A stretch of DNA of 60,726 nucleotides. It comes from a virus. Below the pieces are notes generated by a model. It was not told the origin of the DNA, ran no database searches, and saw only the letters and a list, made by a program, of their open reading frames with translations. Both the position numbers and the translations under genes were made by a program. Shown here piece after piece: positions 9,603 to 54,322 of the stretch. The stretch is from positions 1 through 60,726 of IMG/VR virus record IMGVR_UViG_3300007734_000734, one strand, 5' to 3'. Each line of letters opens with the position of its first letter. The first letter of the stretch is position 1.

Positions 9603-12164
9603 TTACATTTTATTTCTTTTTAATATTATAAACTTTCCAGTTTTTCCATCTTTATCTTTAAATTGTAAACCTGCATCTTTTCTGGAGTAGTCTGGAATTT
9701 TATTTGTTTTAGTTAAGTTATTGTAAATATTTCCATATCCACTTTCGTCTAAACTTGATATTCCTATATATTCTGGTTTTTCTTCTTTAGTAAAGTCTAA
9801 TATAATTTTATACATAGTTGATAGTATTTTTATGTAGTTTTCCTTAGCATTTCCTGTTGGTGAAGAAGGATTAGGATTTTTATTTCCTATTTCATGAAAA
9901 TCAATGTTGTAAAATAAGTTACTGTTGTATGGATTTTTATCTAATTTTATTATTCTGTAATTATAATCATGTTCTCCTACAGTAAAATCTCCATTGGTTA
10001 AACTTCCATATATTTCAACAGCATTGTTTGAATTAAGAGCTATTTCATTTACTTTTAATTCATAAAGTTGAGAAAAAATTTTATTTGAAAGCTTTGGAGT
10101 GTAATTATATTTTAAAATATTTGCAACCCATTCATTTAATGGAGTTTTGATAGTGTCTTCCCAATTTCTAAGAGTTATATTACCTAATTTATATGCTTCT
10201 TCTTCTAATTCTTTTAAATTTCCATCTTCATTAGTATTAGTAGTATTAATATTATTTAATCTACCTTCATTATCTTGTATGCGGTGAATCATTTCATGAG
10301 CATATGAACGCAATATGTCTTTTGGATGTCTATTTAACGTGTATAAAGTGATTGAACAGTTAGATGGATCATAATATGCTGTTTTGCCTAATATGTTTTT
10401 AGCGTTTTTAAAATCGTTGTTTATGATTTTTAATGTAGGGTATGGTTTAATGTTCATACCTTGATCAACCATATATTTAGTTAAAGATGCCAAATGTGTT
10501 TTAAAATTATTAAAGACATTTAATGATTCATTAATCTTCTTAGGTGCTTCTTTAGAAAGAAATAGATAAAAATAATTTAAGGCTTCAAGTCTTTCTCCTG
10601 TTAATTCCTTTTTTAAAATTTCATATTCTTTATCTGGATTATCTTTTATAGCTTTGTAAAGATCGGCGTGTAAAGCCCAATATTTAATTTCATTATTATT
10701 TAATTCATTTAATGGAAGTTCCAATGTCTGTTTATATTTTTCAGATGACATCCCATTAGGTAAAAATGAAGTTATATCTTTGCTGTTATTCAAAGCTATT
10801 CTTAAATTAGTAGCACTTAAATTTCCAGCTGAGTTGTCGTAGTTTTTAATAGTTGTATTTTGTGGTACTTTACCAAATCTACCTAGATCCTCCTCTTTAC
10901 CAAATACTGCTATATATCGCTGTTCTGGATTAGCTCTAAAGATTTCGTGTGCTGCTGTTACAGGGCTTTGGGATGGAACAGGTAAAGATGGATCATTTGA
11001 TTTCATAACCTTTACATTTGATGGAAGATTAGCTGCTTTAAAAATAGCTAAACTTTGATCAGATGTTATAGGCATTTCATCTTTTAATCGAGTTGTAAGT
11101 TTTTCTTTTTCTTTTTTGGTCTTAGGTTCACCACCTGGTTCTGTTTTTGGTGATATTAACACAATTACCTCATCAGCGTCATTAGCAGCTGCTTTAATTC
11201 TAGCTATATGATCTTTATGAGGTGGTTTAAACTTTCCTGGAAATACAGCTATTATTTTTTCAGATTTATCTTCTAAAAGAAATGGATTTATTAGTTCCAT
11301 TACCAATGCGCTATATTTTTCTTGTAAAGCAGCTACTGTGTCTAATGATTGTTGTTTTTTAATGCCTTTATCTTTTTTTGCTTCAGCATCTCCTACTCTA
11401 ATGTTTTTAGCATACATTCCTTTAAGTCTATCTATTGATCTTCTATTTTTAAAACCTTTAATTTTTTGAATTATTGTTTCAAATTTATCATTTTTAATAT
11501 CAATATCTAATGTTAATAACATTTTTTTAACATCTTCAAATGTATTTGACTTCCATATTTGTTTACCATCATTTTTACCTATAGGAACAATTCTTAAAGT
11601 TAATTCTGATGGATTTAAGTTAAAATCATATTCTTCACCTTCACCTGGTTTTTCAGGATTTGTAATGTTTAATTCATTAAATAAATTTTCTATTTGTTTT
11701 TCATCTAATTCAGTAAATATTGTTTTAGCTAAACCTATAGCTAATGTTTGTTCTTGAGCGGGTAGATCTAACATTTGAAAGGTAAATTTACCTTCTTCTT
11801 TAGTAACTGTTACTATGTTGTCTATTTGAACATATTCTTTTTCTTTATTTGCTATAGGATATAATGTAGAAACAATATTTCCATGTATAAAGTATTTTTT
11901 GTTTTTAGACGGAATAATTGGTATTTTATCATTTTGTGTTAAAAAACTAGCAAGTTGTTGCTTAAGTTCTTTTTTATCACCTTCAGGAAATGACACAACT
12001 ATGTCTATGTCTCCAAATATATCTTTTTCAGGTCTAGAGCGAACTCCAGTTATAGTATATGATGTATCTAAACCTAAAGGTTTTAAGATATTATCTCTAT
12101 AGTCACGAATTGTGGCTTTTAAATCTTCTTTATTAATGGTGACTCCACCTGCTGCTCCACTCAT
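9603..12164 (-). CDS. Tri-domain protein: Pol-beta-type nucleotidyltransferase, cytidylyltransferase-like domain, zincin (853 aa)
   Basis: Three enzyme-like modules are visible. Residues 40-57 hold G-x-R-S followed by D52-I-D54, with a later Asp at 115, as in Pol-beta-superfamily nucleotidyltransferases. Residues 304-320 hold FPGKFKPPHKDH, a variant of the HxGH motif of cytidylyl/adenylyltransferases, and LSATNLR (449-455) matches the family's second motif (ISxTxxR). Residues 623-627 are HEMIH, the HExxH zinc site, with candidate third ligands at E654-E656. A further C-terminal domain (700-853) is unassigned. Next to another nucleotidyltransferase gene, it may modify or process host molecules; substrates are unknown. 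Confidence 0.8.
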   Translation of the reverse strand: MSGAAGGVTINKEDLKATIRDYRDNILKPLGLDTSYTITGVRSRPEKDIFGDIDIVVSFPEGDKKELKQQLASFLTQNDKIPIIPSKNKKYFIHGNIVSTLYPIANKEKEYVQIDNIVTVTKEEGKFTFQMLDLPAQEQTLAIGLAKTIFTELDEKQIENLFNELNITNPEKPGEGEEYDFNLNPSELTLRIVPIGKNDGKQIWKSNTFEDVKKMLLTLDIDIKNDKFETIIQKIKGFKNRRSIDRLKGMYAKNIRVGDAEAKKDKGIKKQQSLDTVAALQEKYSALVMELINPFLLEDKSEKIIAVFPGKFKPPHKDHIARIKAAANDADEVIVLISPKTEPGGEPKTKKEKEKLTTRLKDEMPITSDQSLAIFKAANLPSNVKVMKSNDPSLPVPSQSPVTAAHEIFRANPEQRYIAVFGKEEDLGRFGKVPQNTTIKNYDNSAGNLSATNLRIALNNSKDITSFLPNGMSSEKYKQTLELPLNELNNNEIKYWALHADLYKAIKDNPDKEYEILKKELTGERLEALNYFYLFLSKEAPKKINESLNVFNNFKTHLASLTKYMVDQGMNIKPYPTLKIINNDFKNAKNILGKTAYYDPSNCSITLYTLNRHPKDILRSYAHEMIHRIQDNEGRLNNINTTNTNEDGNLKELEEEAYKLGNITLRNWEDTIKTPLNEWVANILKYNYTPKLSNKIFSQLYELKVNEIALNSNNAVEIYGSLTNGDFTVGEHDYNYRIIKLDKNPYNSNLFYNIDFHEIGNKNPNPSSPTGNAKENYIKILSTMYKIILDFTKEEKPEYIGISSLDESGYGNIYNNLTKTNKIPDYSRKDAGLQFKDKDGKTGKFIILKRNKM

Positions 12165-14892: not shown

Positions 14893-15786
14893 TTAACAAT
14901 ATATAAAAGTGTATCCGTTACACGTAATGTTATTTTTTAAAGAATTATTTATTATATATTTTGAGATTTTTAAGATTTCATGAGCTTCTTGAATTCCTCT
15001 TTTAAATATTTGGTTGGTTTCTTTTAGTAATATAGATTTAGAGGTTAGACCTTTAGGTCTTTTTGTTCTTAAATCTCTAATAGATGTATCTATTTTTAAT
15101 TTTTTATTTAGGATGTATTTTACAGTAGCATGATCTAATCCTACTTGTTCTCCTATTTTTTGGTGAGATATATTTTCTTCAAAAAGTTTTTTTATAATAT
15201 CTAAAATGTCTTTATTCCATCTTTTTCCTTTTAATTTATTAGAACCTCTTATTTCTTTAGGGATTATTTCATTTAAAATTTCATAACCTATTTTATATTT
15301 TGAACATAATTGGTCTAAATTAAATCCATTATTATAATCTTTTAAAATAACTTCATCATCTATTTCTCTAATTTTTATTTTTTCATTAATTAAAATTTTT
15401 TCATTTAAGATATTTTTAGCATAAACATGCCCTATATGTTTATTATAACATAGTGGGTTTAGTAAATTATGGTTTTCATAAATAAAGTAGTTTTCATAAT
15501 ATGTTTGTTCTGATTTTGTTTTGCATAATTGAATTATGGTTCTTTTAAAATTTTCTTTACCATATTTTTGAATATCTTCTAATAATATTTTAGAACTACC
15601 CCAGTAATTTTCCCAATCAGATTTTACTGTTTTTATTATTGAATTTTTTCTAGATTTTAATTTATGTTTTTTTCTAAAGGAAAATTGTTTTTTTCCAAAA
15701 TAAAACATATTATTAATTAAATTTTCAATTTTATAAACAAAACCAAAATATTCAGATTCATTAAATTCTTCTTTATATTCCCACAT
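14893..15786 (-). CDS. GIY-YIG homing endonuclease, Seg-like, 297 aa
   Basis: GFVYKI (15-20) and FYFGKK (28-33) are the GIY and YIG elements. They are followed by the DWENYWGSS segment typical of T4-like Seg-family freestanding homing endonucleases, and a C-terminal helix-turn-helix region (SHQKIGEQVGLDHATVKYIL) that would recognise the target site. It stands alone between the primase and a ParB-like gene and has its own late-type motif (15797-15810). Its probable role is its own spread between phage genomes. Confidence 0.88.
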   Translation of the reverse strand: MWEYKEEFNESEYFGFVYKIENLINNMFYFGKKQFSFRKKHKLKSRKNSIIKTVKSDWENYWGSSKILLEDIQKYGKENFKRTIIQLCKTKSEQTYYENYFIYENHNLLNPLCYNKHIGHVYAKNILNEKILINEKIKIREIDDEVILKDYNNGFNLDQLCSKYKIGYEILNEIIPKEIRGSNKLKGKRWNKDILDIIKKLFEENISHQKIGEQVGLDHATVKYILNKKLKIDTSIRDLRTKRPKGLTSKSILLKETNQIFKRGIQEAHEILKISKYIINNSLKNNITCNGYTFIYC

Positions 15787-37163: not shown

Positions 37164-37273
37164 TAATAGAGATAGGAATCGAACCTACATATGATGTTGA
37201 CATCATGAACGTTTTACAACATTCTGCGTTTTCCTTCGGTAAATGATCATTTACACGTTTTCGCCACTCTATC
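37164..37273 (-). tRNA. tRNA-Tyr (GTA) with extra D-arm hairpin
   Basis: On the minus strand a 7-bp acceptor (GATAGAG/CTCTATT), a T arm (GTAGG TTCGATT CCTAT) and a long variable arm (ATGATG TCAA CATCAT) are clear. The anticodon arm GAATG/CGTTC encloses TTGTAAAA, giving anticodon GTA. A long variable arm is normal for bacterial tRNA-Tyr. Two things are odd: the anticodon loop has 8 rather than 7 bases, and the D loop contains a perfect 16-base palindrome (GTAAATGATCATTTAC). CCA is not encoded. Confidence 0.7.
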
Positions 37274-37280
37274 TTTTTAG

Positions 37281-37648
37281 TGGAGCTGGAGGGAATCGAA
37301 CCCTCGTCCAAACAACTAATCAAAGAAATTCATTTACAAGCTTAGTTAGTTTTTTTAAACAAACAAAATAATCAATTTTTTTAACATCTTTAGAGAAATT
37401 GATAAAACTGTGCAGCCACATAAGTCAGGCCTACTTTATGCTTTGTTCACTTCTTTTTAAGTCCATGAGTGATATGGAATAGACTAAGCAGCTACTGCTA
37501 AATCTGCACTTACAAATGCTAAAGCATCTTCATAAGTGAAAGTTGACTTTTCGTCGTTTAAACTGTACATAGGTGATTAACGTGTTTCCAATGTTAACAC
37601 GGCTTGCATTTCAAAGAACTAGATTGCCTGTCAAAACCAGGCAGCCCC
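37281..37648 (-). ncRNA. ssrA: tmRNA (ssrA) with long tag
   Basis: The 5' end GGGGCTG pairs with CAGCTCC at the 3' end, with a G3-U70 wobble that marks alanine charging. The 3' part has the T arm GAGGGTTCGATTCCCTC. Near the 5' end GGTTTTGACAGG matches the conserved tmRNA TLD. The tag frame runs about 37561-37487, starting near LNDEK and ending LAVAA with TAG. It aligns with the E. coli AAC-GAC-GAA resume region. The tag is about 25 residues, longer than most. A phage copy could rescue stalled ribosomes or tag proteins for degradation. Confidence 0.9.
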
Positions 37649-37654
37649 CATTTG

Positions 37655-37757
37655 TAGTCAGAACAGGATTCGAACCTGTGACGTAGTCTTTGTCTCAAGA
37701 ACCATAAACCTCTTTGGCTTCAACGCATGGAGCGTTGGACCTATCTACTATCTGACT
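37655..37757 (-). tRNA. tRNA-like element, anticodon uncertain
   Basis: A 7-bp acceptor (AGTCAGA/TCTGACT plus A) and a perfect T arm (ACAGG TTCGAAT CCTGT) are clear. Between them is an extra hairpin (CAACG CTCCATG CGTTG), then a possible anticodon arm AAGAG/TTCTT enclosing GTTTATGG and a long variable region. By analogy with the neighbouring tRNA-Tyr the anticodon would be TTA, which pairs with UAA. Position 37 would then be U, which is unusual. If the first hairpin is the anticodon arm, the anticodon would be CCA. It may also be degenerate. Confidence 0.45.
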
Positions 37758-50261: not shown

Positions 50262-50906
50262 TTAATTGAGGCAGTATTTCCATTTATATCCATATGCCGT
50301 TTTACTATCCCCGACACAACAAGCATATATTAGAGTAGTTTTCTTATTTAAGTATTTTGACGCATCCATAACTGAATTCCATGTTGTAATATATTTATCA
50401 TTTAAATCTGTCTGGATAATTGATTTACCTATACCTTTTTTATATGAGGTCTTTCCTTTCTTTTTTACACTTAATTTTTCTCCAAATCCATTAGGTTTAG
50501 GTTTAGAATTAGATAATCCTATTTTTTGTCTATGTTCTATAGATTGAGGTCCTTTAGGAGGCATAAAACATTTATGTTTACATAATGCTTGTATGTGTTC
50601 TTTGGTGTGTGGTTTTCTCATTTTTTCTTTAAAAATTTCATCTCTAAACTCCGGTCCACCTCCACCTTTTTTATTTTTATTCATTATTTCAAATCCCCAT
50701 TGTCTAAATTGTTCTATCCAATATGATTCTATTGGTTCCCAATCTTTTCTATTTAGACTATCTACTTTATCTATATAGTCATAAGTAATTTGAAGACCAT
50801 AAGTTTTTCTATGGTTTGATTTTCTACAACCTGTTGTTTTACCTATATATACCTTATTGGAATCATTATAACAATTGGTTACTAAATAAACATATGTTGT
50901 TTCCAT
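50262..50906 (-). CDS. GIY-YIG homing endonuclease with NUMOD1, 214 aa
   Basis: YVYLVT (5-10) and VYIGKT (19-24) form the GIY-YIG catalytic pair, with R28 and a later Glu likely in the active site. A Lys/Gly-rich linker leads to a NUMOD1-like repeat (IIQTDLNDKYITTWNSVMDA). It has its own late-type motif (50907-50920) and lies between two early cassettes, typical of a freestanding homing gene. Confidence 0.88.
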   Translation of the reverse strand: METTYVYLVTNCYNDSNKVYIGKTTGCRKSNHRKTYGLQITYDYIDKVDSLNRKDWEPIESYWIEQFRQWGFEIMNKNKKGGGGPEFRDEIFKEKMRKPHTKEHIQALCKHKCFMPPKGPQSIEHRQKIGLSNSKPKPNGFGEKLSVKKKGKTSYKKGIGKSIIQTDLNDKYITTWNSVMDASKYLNKKTTLIYACCVGDSKTAYGYKWKYCLN

Positions 50907-53608: not shown

Positions 53609-54322
53609 TTATTTAAAAACTTCATCTGCAAATCCAAGCGATATTGTTTCTTCAGCGTTTAGTATTGTGTCAAAATTCAACATTTCTTTTAATATTAGTC
53701 TAATTTCTTCTTTTTTCTTAACTAATATTTTACTAAAAACATATGTTTTAGAAATTGATGGTGGATAAGTAAATGTGTTTTGTTTAGTCATAATGTCACT
53801 TAATGTTTTGGCTAAGTAACCTAATCCCATTTTTTCTTCTTTTTCTAACATAACATCTAAATAAATGTTTTCCATATCATAGTTTAGTCTCTTACATTCT
53901 TCCGCCCACTTCTCAACTATCTTGGCGTGACCATATCTCCCCTCATAACCATAGTGAATCATAAATCTGGAGTTAGGCATCATTATTCTAACATCTGCTG
54001 CTTGTAAAATAATACTTCCCATAGACATAGCATATCCATATGTTTTAATGGTACAATGACACTTAGACGTTTTAATTGCGTCATAAATAGCCATTCCATG
54101 ATACCAATCACCACCGGGATTGTTCATTATTATAAAAATAGCATCTGCACTTTTAGACTCTAACATGTGTATTCCTTTTACAAAATACTCAGCCATATAA
54201 GAATCAACTCCTGATTCTAATTCTAAGCCTGAGTTAATTGAACCCATGTATATAGTTCTACTTTCAACGTCTACATTATAGTCAAACCATCTGTCTAGTG
54301 TTTCTTTATTTATTCGTGCCAT
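53609..54322 (-). CDS. ClpP-like serine protease, 237 aa
   Basis: The ClpP-fold signature is present: a glycine-rich NNPGGDWYHGMAIYDAI, the nucleophile region YGYAMSMGSIILQAADVR with Ser100, and MIHYG with His123. The catalytic Asp is not certain. Phage ClpP-like enzymes often act as head-maturation proteases or scaffold degraders, but no capsid genes are nearby here. It could also act with host proteins. 3 bases from the downstream gene. Confidence 0.88.
   Translation of the reverse strand: MARINKETLDRWFDYNVDVESRTIYMGSINSGLELESGVDSYMAEYFVKGIHMLESKSADAIFIIMNNPGGDWYHGMAIYDAIKTSKCHCTIKTYGYAMSMGSIILQAADVRIMMPNSRFMIHYGYEGRYGHAKIVEKWAEECKRLNYDMENIYLDVMLEKEEKMGLGYLAKTLSDIMTKQNTFTYPPSISKTYVFSKILVKKKEEIRLILKEMLNFDTILNAEETISLGFADEVFK

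Follow-up and report, generated by a model that had tools for sequence, protein, structure and literature searches.

Transfer-messenger RNA (tmRNA) tags are usually pictured as short degradation signals coded by the host, and the most frequent tag length in a 2025 database is 10 (PMC11915505). We investigated a locus that does not sit easily with this picture. The window, by which we mean the whole 60,726-base stretch of an IMG/VR virus record, is a fragment of a phage genome in which an earlier note had recognized a tmRNA whose acidic tag, at about 25 residues, was unusually long. Is the element a genuine tmRNA, where does its tag begin, and is the peptide preserved for a purpose of the virus?

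A one-piece tmRNA gene in the window

ARAGORN called a one-piece tmRNA (ssrA) at 37280-37648 on the minus strand, and the Rfam model RF00023 matched 37278-37648 with 110.9 bits (E 1.6e-42; cut-off 47), spanning all 374 model positions. The covariance search that the earlier note had proposed as a check thus matched the tmRNA model from end to end, and its call of a phage tmRNA is borne out by both programs. The permuted (two-piece) model reached only 17.5 bits; a permuted tmRNA was rejected on the ARAGORN call together with the full-length match to the one-piece model. The window element is a genuine one-piece tmRNA.

The 7-bp acceptor with its G3-U70 wobble and the T arm, both named previously, can be seen in the sequence. 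The 5' acceptor strand GGGGCUG (37642-37648, minus strand) pairs with CAGCUCC (37282-37288), and the T arm GAGGG-UUCGAUU-CCCUC occupies 37289-37305 (minus strand), also according to the Rfam alignment. When the acceptor stems of 88 members of the viral family described below were compared, all 88 had U opposite G3, while the other pairs varied on both sides; the script demanded seven pairs, and it is the stem diversity with the constant U70, and nothing else, that is informative here. The gene ends in ..CUCCACUA and lacks the terminal CCA, which a host enzyme would therefore need to add.

Immediately 5' of the tag, a script found a PK1-like H-type pseudoknot (37567-37601, minus strand). It comprises a 6-bp stem S1, CGUGUU/AACACG (37596-37601 with 37581-37586), and a stem S2 of seven positions with one mismatch allowed, ACAUUGG/CCUAUGU (37588-37594 with 37567-37573). 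This placement agrees with the Rfam alignment, and PK1 pairing across the tag family averages 11.4 paired against 8.6 for shuffled sequence. Ordinary secondary-structure folding of the PK1 stretch gave a z of +1.0, which is uninformative because the folding tool is blind to pseudoknots. The Rfam alignment is uncertain between PK1 and the 3' domain, and where PK2-PK4 would lie, downstream of the tag, its confidence is low.

The G3-U70 acceptor, the T arm and PK1 are shared with E. coli ssrA and other bacterial one-piece tmRNAs, as are a UAGUC-like signal with A at -4 and an Ala-Ala tag end. The window tag differs from theirs in its 23 codons and its own core. Phage tmRNAs as such are already known: they are established in the mycobacteriophages Bxz1, Cali, Catera, Wildcat and others, a different phage group (PMC4131195), and in huge phages (PMC7162821). 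The earlier view that they are few is out of date, given 402 carriers among 18,146 phage genomes (PMC9004378) and the long tags that we found in other viral contigs. Long tags are likewise known from isolated phages. The flavobacterial Cellulophaga phage Calle_1 (MT732432) has a one-piece tmRNA like that of the window, for which ARAGORN gives a 22-residue tag, AQIEANMEAVNAILNLEVAVGV, unrelated in sequence to the window's; the annotated coordinates of this tmRNA differ from the ARAGORN call. Among annotated phages, the best T-arm matches to the window came from the crAss-like phages cr125_1 and cr60_1 and from Chryseobacterium phage MA9V-3, but their tmRNAs are permuted according to ARAGORN, with tags of 13-17 residues.

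The tag frame and its viral family

The E. coli tmRNA has its resume codon four bases past A86, at UAGUC|GCA (PMC2481249). The window counterpart is UAAAC|GAC: by the A86 rule and the family alignment, the resume signal UAAAC (37556-37560, minus strand) carries the critical A at -4 and places GAC at 37555. From there, the sequence and the family alignment give a frame of 23 codons, DEKSTFTYEDALAFVSADLAVAA, followed by UAG (37484-37555, minus strand), which is also ARAGORN's own tag and has a net charge of about -4. Aligned family members mostly show UAAAC or UAAAT at this site, then a codon starting with G (GAC, GCA, GGC, GCU); the script searched for A at -4, and that family count is partly so by construction.

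The frame 37561-37487 proposed earlier is indeed open and reads LNDEKSTFTYEDALAFVSADLAVAA, 25 codons. In four close relatives (L215, L240, L250 and L276), however, an in-frame UGA lies two codons 5' of GAC, and therefore reading there cannot start at the Leu position of the earlier note; we rejected the start at UUA (LNDEK, 25 codons) on these grounds. The resemblance of AAC-GAC-GAA to the E. coli start, on which that reading relied, does not mark the resume point, as UAAAC|GAC and the relatives' UGA indicate. With GAC at 37555 as the most probable resume codon, the tag stays long and acidic as first described, at 23 codons and not 25. A possible start at AAC, one codon before GAC, would give 24.

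We then searched viral contigs with a degenerate DNA pattern for T-F/Y-E-D-A-x-x-F-V, which has one match in the window where shuffling predicts 0. At least 119 stretches matched, and after removal of about ten coding matches and of duplicates, at least 104 viral contigs (window included) had both the motif and a resume signal. The tmRNAs of at least about 103 other viral contigs thus share the tag core SxxTFEDAMxFVGADxAVAA, and ARAGORN called a tmRNA at most of the family loci. Typical tags are AEELSSFTFEDAMAFVGADYAVAA, DVELSTMTFEDAMAFVGADYAVAA and DEKSTFTFEDAMSFVGADLAVAA. Lengths are mostly 22-28 codons, with one of 34, and are uncertain by one or two codons; in a few members (L114, L245, L284) the script start falls later than ARAGORN's, whose tag is two codons longer. 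We define this as the "FEDA" long-tag group, in which T[FY]EDAxxFV sits some 17 codons ahead of the stop in a tmRNA tag of at least 22 codons; the window tag displays both features. The Ala-Ala end is not kept in a few members, such as L216 (AVSA) and L303 (MVHA). The coding matches set aside belong mostly to one unrelated protein family, and near base 6411 of L320 a small ORF outside any tmRNA starts with the tag-like MEKKSNFTFEDAIAFVG, which may be chance.

Since the pattern itself selects for the motif, three checks avoided the tag motif as a search key. A contig found through its baseplate gene (79% identity) and then Rfam (L202) has the tag NDEKSTFTFEDAMSFVGADLAVAA, which shows the core, as does the tag ANVELSTWTFEDAMSFVSVDYAVAA of L114, found by a T-arm pattern. 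Scans anchored solely upstream of the tag recovered many family members with the same core, along with variants outside the pattern (AEEKSSFTFADAMAFVGADLAVAA in L417, AVELSTMTFEDVMSFVGADYAVAA in L383) and short tags (ANVDYSTEYYAVAA). Among 78 ARAGORN calls, obtained mostly through the T-arm pattern, 13 had tags of at least 19 residues, which fall into many unrelated sequences, and a baseplate relative (L203) has a 34-codon tag, ANKNIISQDSRNFANQVEAKIISLVRNEYVAIAA, its frame read by eye from the sequence. Long tags are thus frequent in this region of viral diversity, but the FEDA core belongs to one group. The upstream-anchored scans also recovered a second group of viral tmRNAs (L393, L459, L464) with an unrelated conserved tag of 31 residues, ANVYNAEDMMSIPTSITRVAVAEEAELLMAA and relatives. 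In L203, the tmRNA (1501-1861) lies about 700 bases from a GOLLD RNA (2548-2970, 256 bits) and a tRNA.

When the motif pattern was lengthened to reach the stop, none of 84,980 bacterial and archaeal species, each represented by one genome, gave a match, and a looser pattern gave four matches in prokaryote genomes, none inside a tmRNA; a tag borrowed from the host is unsupported by these searches. Against annotated phages, blastn with family tmRNA and tag DNA matched T arms or unrelated genes and no tag. A tblastn search of the tag against the same phages found none, but a control with the Bxz1 tag, about 25 residues long, likewise found none, so that this result carries no weight. The tag letters did not occur in the literature searched. 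Within the scope searched, the tag group was found solely in viruses, and it looks like a purely viral tag preserved in evolution. What appears to be new is a widespread group of viruses that share a single long and conserved tag, for which we found no description in the annotated phages or literature searched. Such a tag could serve as a marker for recognizing these phages in metagenomes.

Signs of selection on the tag and how it may be read

We further investigated whether the peptide, and not just the RNA, is preserved. Over 64 distinct sequences, entropy was 1.02 at third codon positions versus 0.44 and 0.31 at the others, and pN/pS was 0.35 in the tag frame versus 1.9-2.1 in shifted frames; 9 of the 23 codons are set by the search motif, which itself accounts for some of the codon and identity signal. 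Outside the nine searched codons, pN/pS was 0.56, against a column-shuffle mean of 1.04, with 3 of 60 shuffles reaching the observed value. By part, it was 0.42 in the C-terminal portion and 0.71 in the N-terminal six codons, which are weakly constrained. The last Ala is invariant among the 64 sequences. Codon patterns thus give moderate support for selection on the tag peptide outside the search motif. The tag is also the best conserved of the three tmRNA segments compared, with a mean nucleotide identity of 79% (inflated by the search pattern) against 55% for the 5' part and 40% for the 3' pseudoknot part. At the amino-acid level, the core is 77% identical, whereas the baseplate protein is 43-51% identical in most family phages that have one.

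C-terminal ends like AVAA are recognized by ClpXP, as is established for ssrA tags generally. The account that we consider reasonably probable is a working phage tmRNA that uses host SmpB and adds a virus-specific tag, in which a degron-type AVAA end follows a conserved partner-binding core. If expressed during infection, the phage tmRNA would be charged with alanine and presumably delivered, together with host SmpB, to a stalled ribosome. Translation would resume at GAC (37555), and the unfinished protein would gain one Ala plus 23 residues, Ala-DEKSTFTYEDALAFVSADLAVAA. The AVAA end is probably a Clp-type degron that ClpXP-type proteases would read, and the core S-x-x-T-[FY]-E-D-A-x-x-F-V would be bound by a particular adaptor or protease partner. 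The core could bind an adaptor or a phage protein, or be a spacer inherited from a common ancestor; we rank a partner above a simple spacer, since the core has persisted where both the baseplate protein and the other parts of the RNA have diverged. That the tag might alter which protease or adaptor handles the products had been suggested in the earlier note.

Candidate partners were sought in the window and its relatives. The window, a genome fragment, contains no SmpB gene, but among the 35 family contigs examined, the two of L265 and L253 each have a gene for full-length SmpB, 143-147 aa with the GKKEYDKRETIK segment (L471, from base 1482; L472, minus strand, from base 1473), which argues that trans-translation with the family RNAs is functional. 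No ClpX/ClpB-type small domain, as expected of a ClpX-type ATPase, was found in the window; SmpB and such an ATPase are both available from hosts. It does encode a ClpP-like serine protease of 237 aa (53609-54322, minus strand; Pfam PF00574, 98.3 bits), whose best PHROGs matches are head maturation proteases. Of 37 records, 11 contain ClpP-like genes, without any clear association with the tag, so that ClpP as an obligatory tag partner is unsupported; the window protease is a possible partner. In Mel-JY01 and two relatives, the ClpP-like genes are a few kilobases away from the baseplate gene, which might be expected of head maturation proteases. The window gene is distant from the baseplate genes, and residues of a Ser-His-Asp triad are apparently present by eye.

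The same observations bear on other accounts of the locus. The tag may not be mainly a degradation signal: its core might route truncated proteins to a phage-specific partner, such as a phage ClpP or some other binding protein, or mark host proteins. A virus-only distribution, a conserved core preceding the degron-like end and the presence of a ClpP-like protease in the window would all suit this idea, to which we give a minority chance, as the limited spread of ClpP-like genes and the head-maturation matches of the window protein weigh against it. Similarly tentative is the proposal that a large environmental phage group evolved its own tag, whose core would be recognized by a dedicated factor of phage or host origin, giving tagged proteins a fate different from that of the host ssrA tag. 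It is rather unlikely, in our estimate, that the tmRNA is ordinary and its extra length a neutral spacer, with the ClpXP degron residues alone of importance and the core shared by viral kinship. Such a spacer would fit the invariant C-terminal Ala, the weak constraint on the N-terminal six codons and the unrelated long tags of other viral contigs, which mostly also end in Ala-Ala; it fits poorly with a core that stays similar where the other parts of the RNA diverge, as does the baseplate protein in most family phages that have it, and that tag-free anchors still recover.

A decoy, in which the phage RNA would compete with host tmRNA or titrate SmpB and the tag would be incidental, has a precedent in phage DS6A, which encodes little beyond the tRNA-like domain, a similar molecule being a strong inhibitor of tmRNA (PMC4131195). 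We regard it as improbable here, since this RNA retains its pseudoknot, its resume signal and an open tag frame, and the tag is better conserved than the other segments compared. We give next to no credence to a chance or decayed element whose long frame would be an accident of a degenerate tmRNA: the uncertain alignment between PK1 and the 3' domain could be taken to favor it, but RF00023 matched over its full length and at least about 103 relatives share a tag core whose motif is unexpected by chance. Returning to the working tmRNA with a partner-binding core, the absence of this long conserved tag from the prokaryote genomes searched suggests that these viruses may keep the rescue and take over the fate of the tagged protein. 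Why phages carry tmRNA at all thereby becomes a question that a small synthetic peptide, used together with a reporter, can test.

Flanking elements and host

The tmRNA gene is flanked by two tRNA-like elements on the same strand. The upstream element (37655-37757) combines an acceptor and T arm with three extra hairpins and no clear D arm (fold z -2.5); it passes the Rfam tRNA cut-off with 31.7 bits, and a near-exact pattern found no further copy in IMG/VR. The downstream element (37166-37274; T arm 37175-37185; fold z -2.2) has an acceptor and T arm enclosing several hairpins and a sub-threshold tRNA match of 18 bits. Both measure about 103-109 nt, have an acceptor of 6-7 bp and lack a clear tRNA core, and ARAGORN calls neither.

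By baseplate protein, the closest annotated phages are Flavobacterium phage immuto (45.6%), in whose genome no tmRNA match was found, and Microcystis phage Mel-JY01 (45.3%). A Shine-Dalgarno-like motif precedes none of 50 window ORFs, versus 7% of random sites, and the region before the ORFs is 60% A, much as in immuto. The Bacteroidota promoter motif is not enriched in the window (12 occurrences versus 17.4 expected). A Bacteroidota host fits the lack of Shine-Dalgarno-like motifs and the A-rich region before the ORFs, short of proof.

Elsewhere on the minus strand, the window carries likely homing-endonuclease genes at 14893-15786, for a SegE-like GIY-YIG protein, and at 50262-50906, for a protein with a NUMOD1 domain. 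An 853-aa protein (9603-12164, minus strand) contains a short nucleotidyltransferase-like stretch in its middle, with a weak NMNAT/cytidylyltransferase match.
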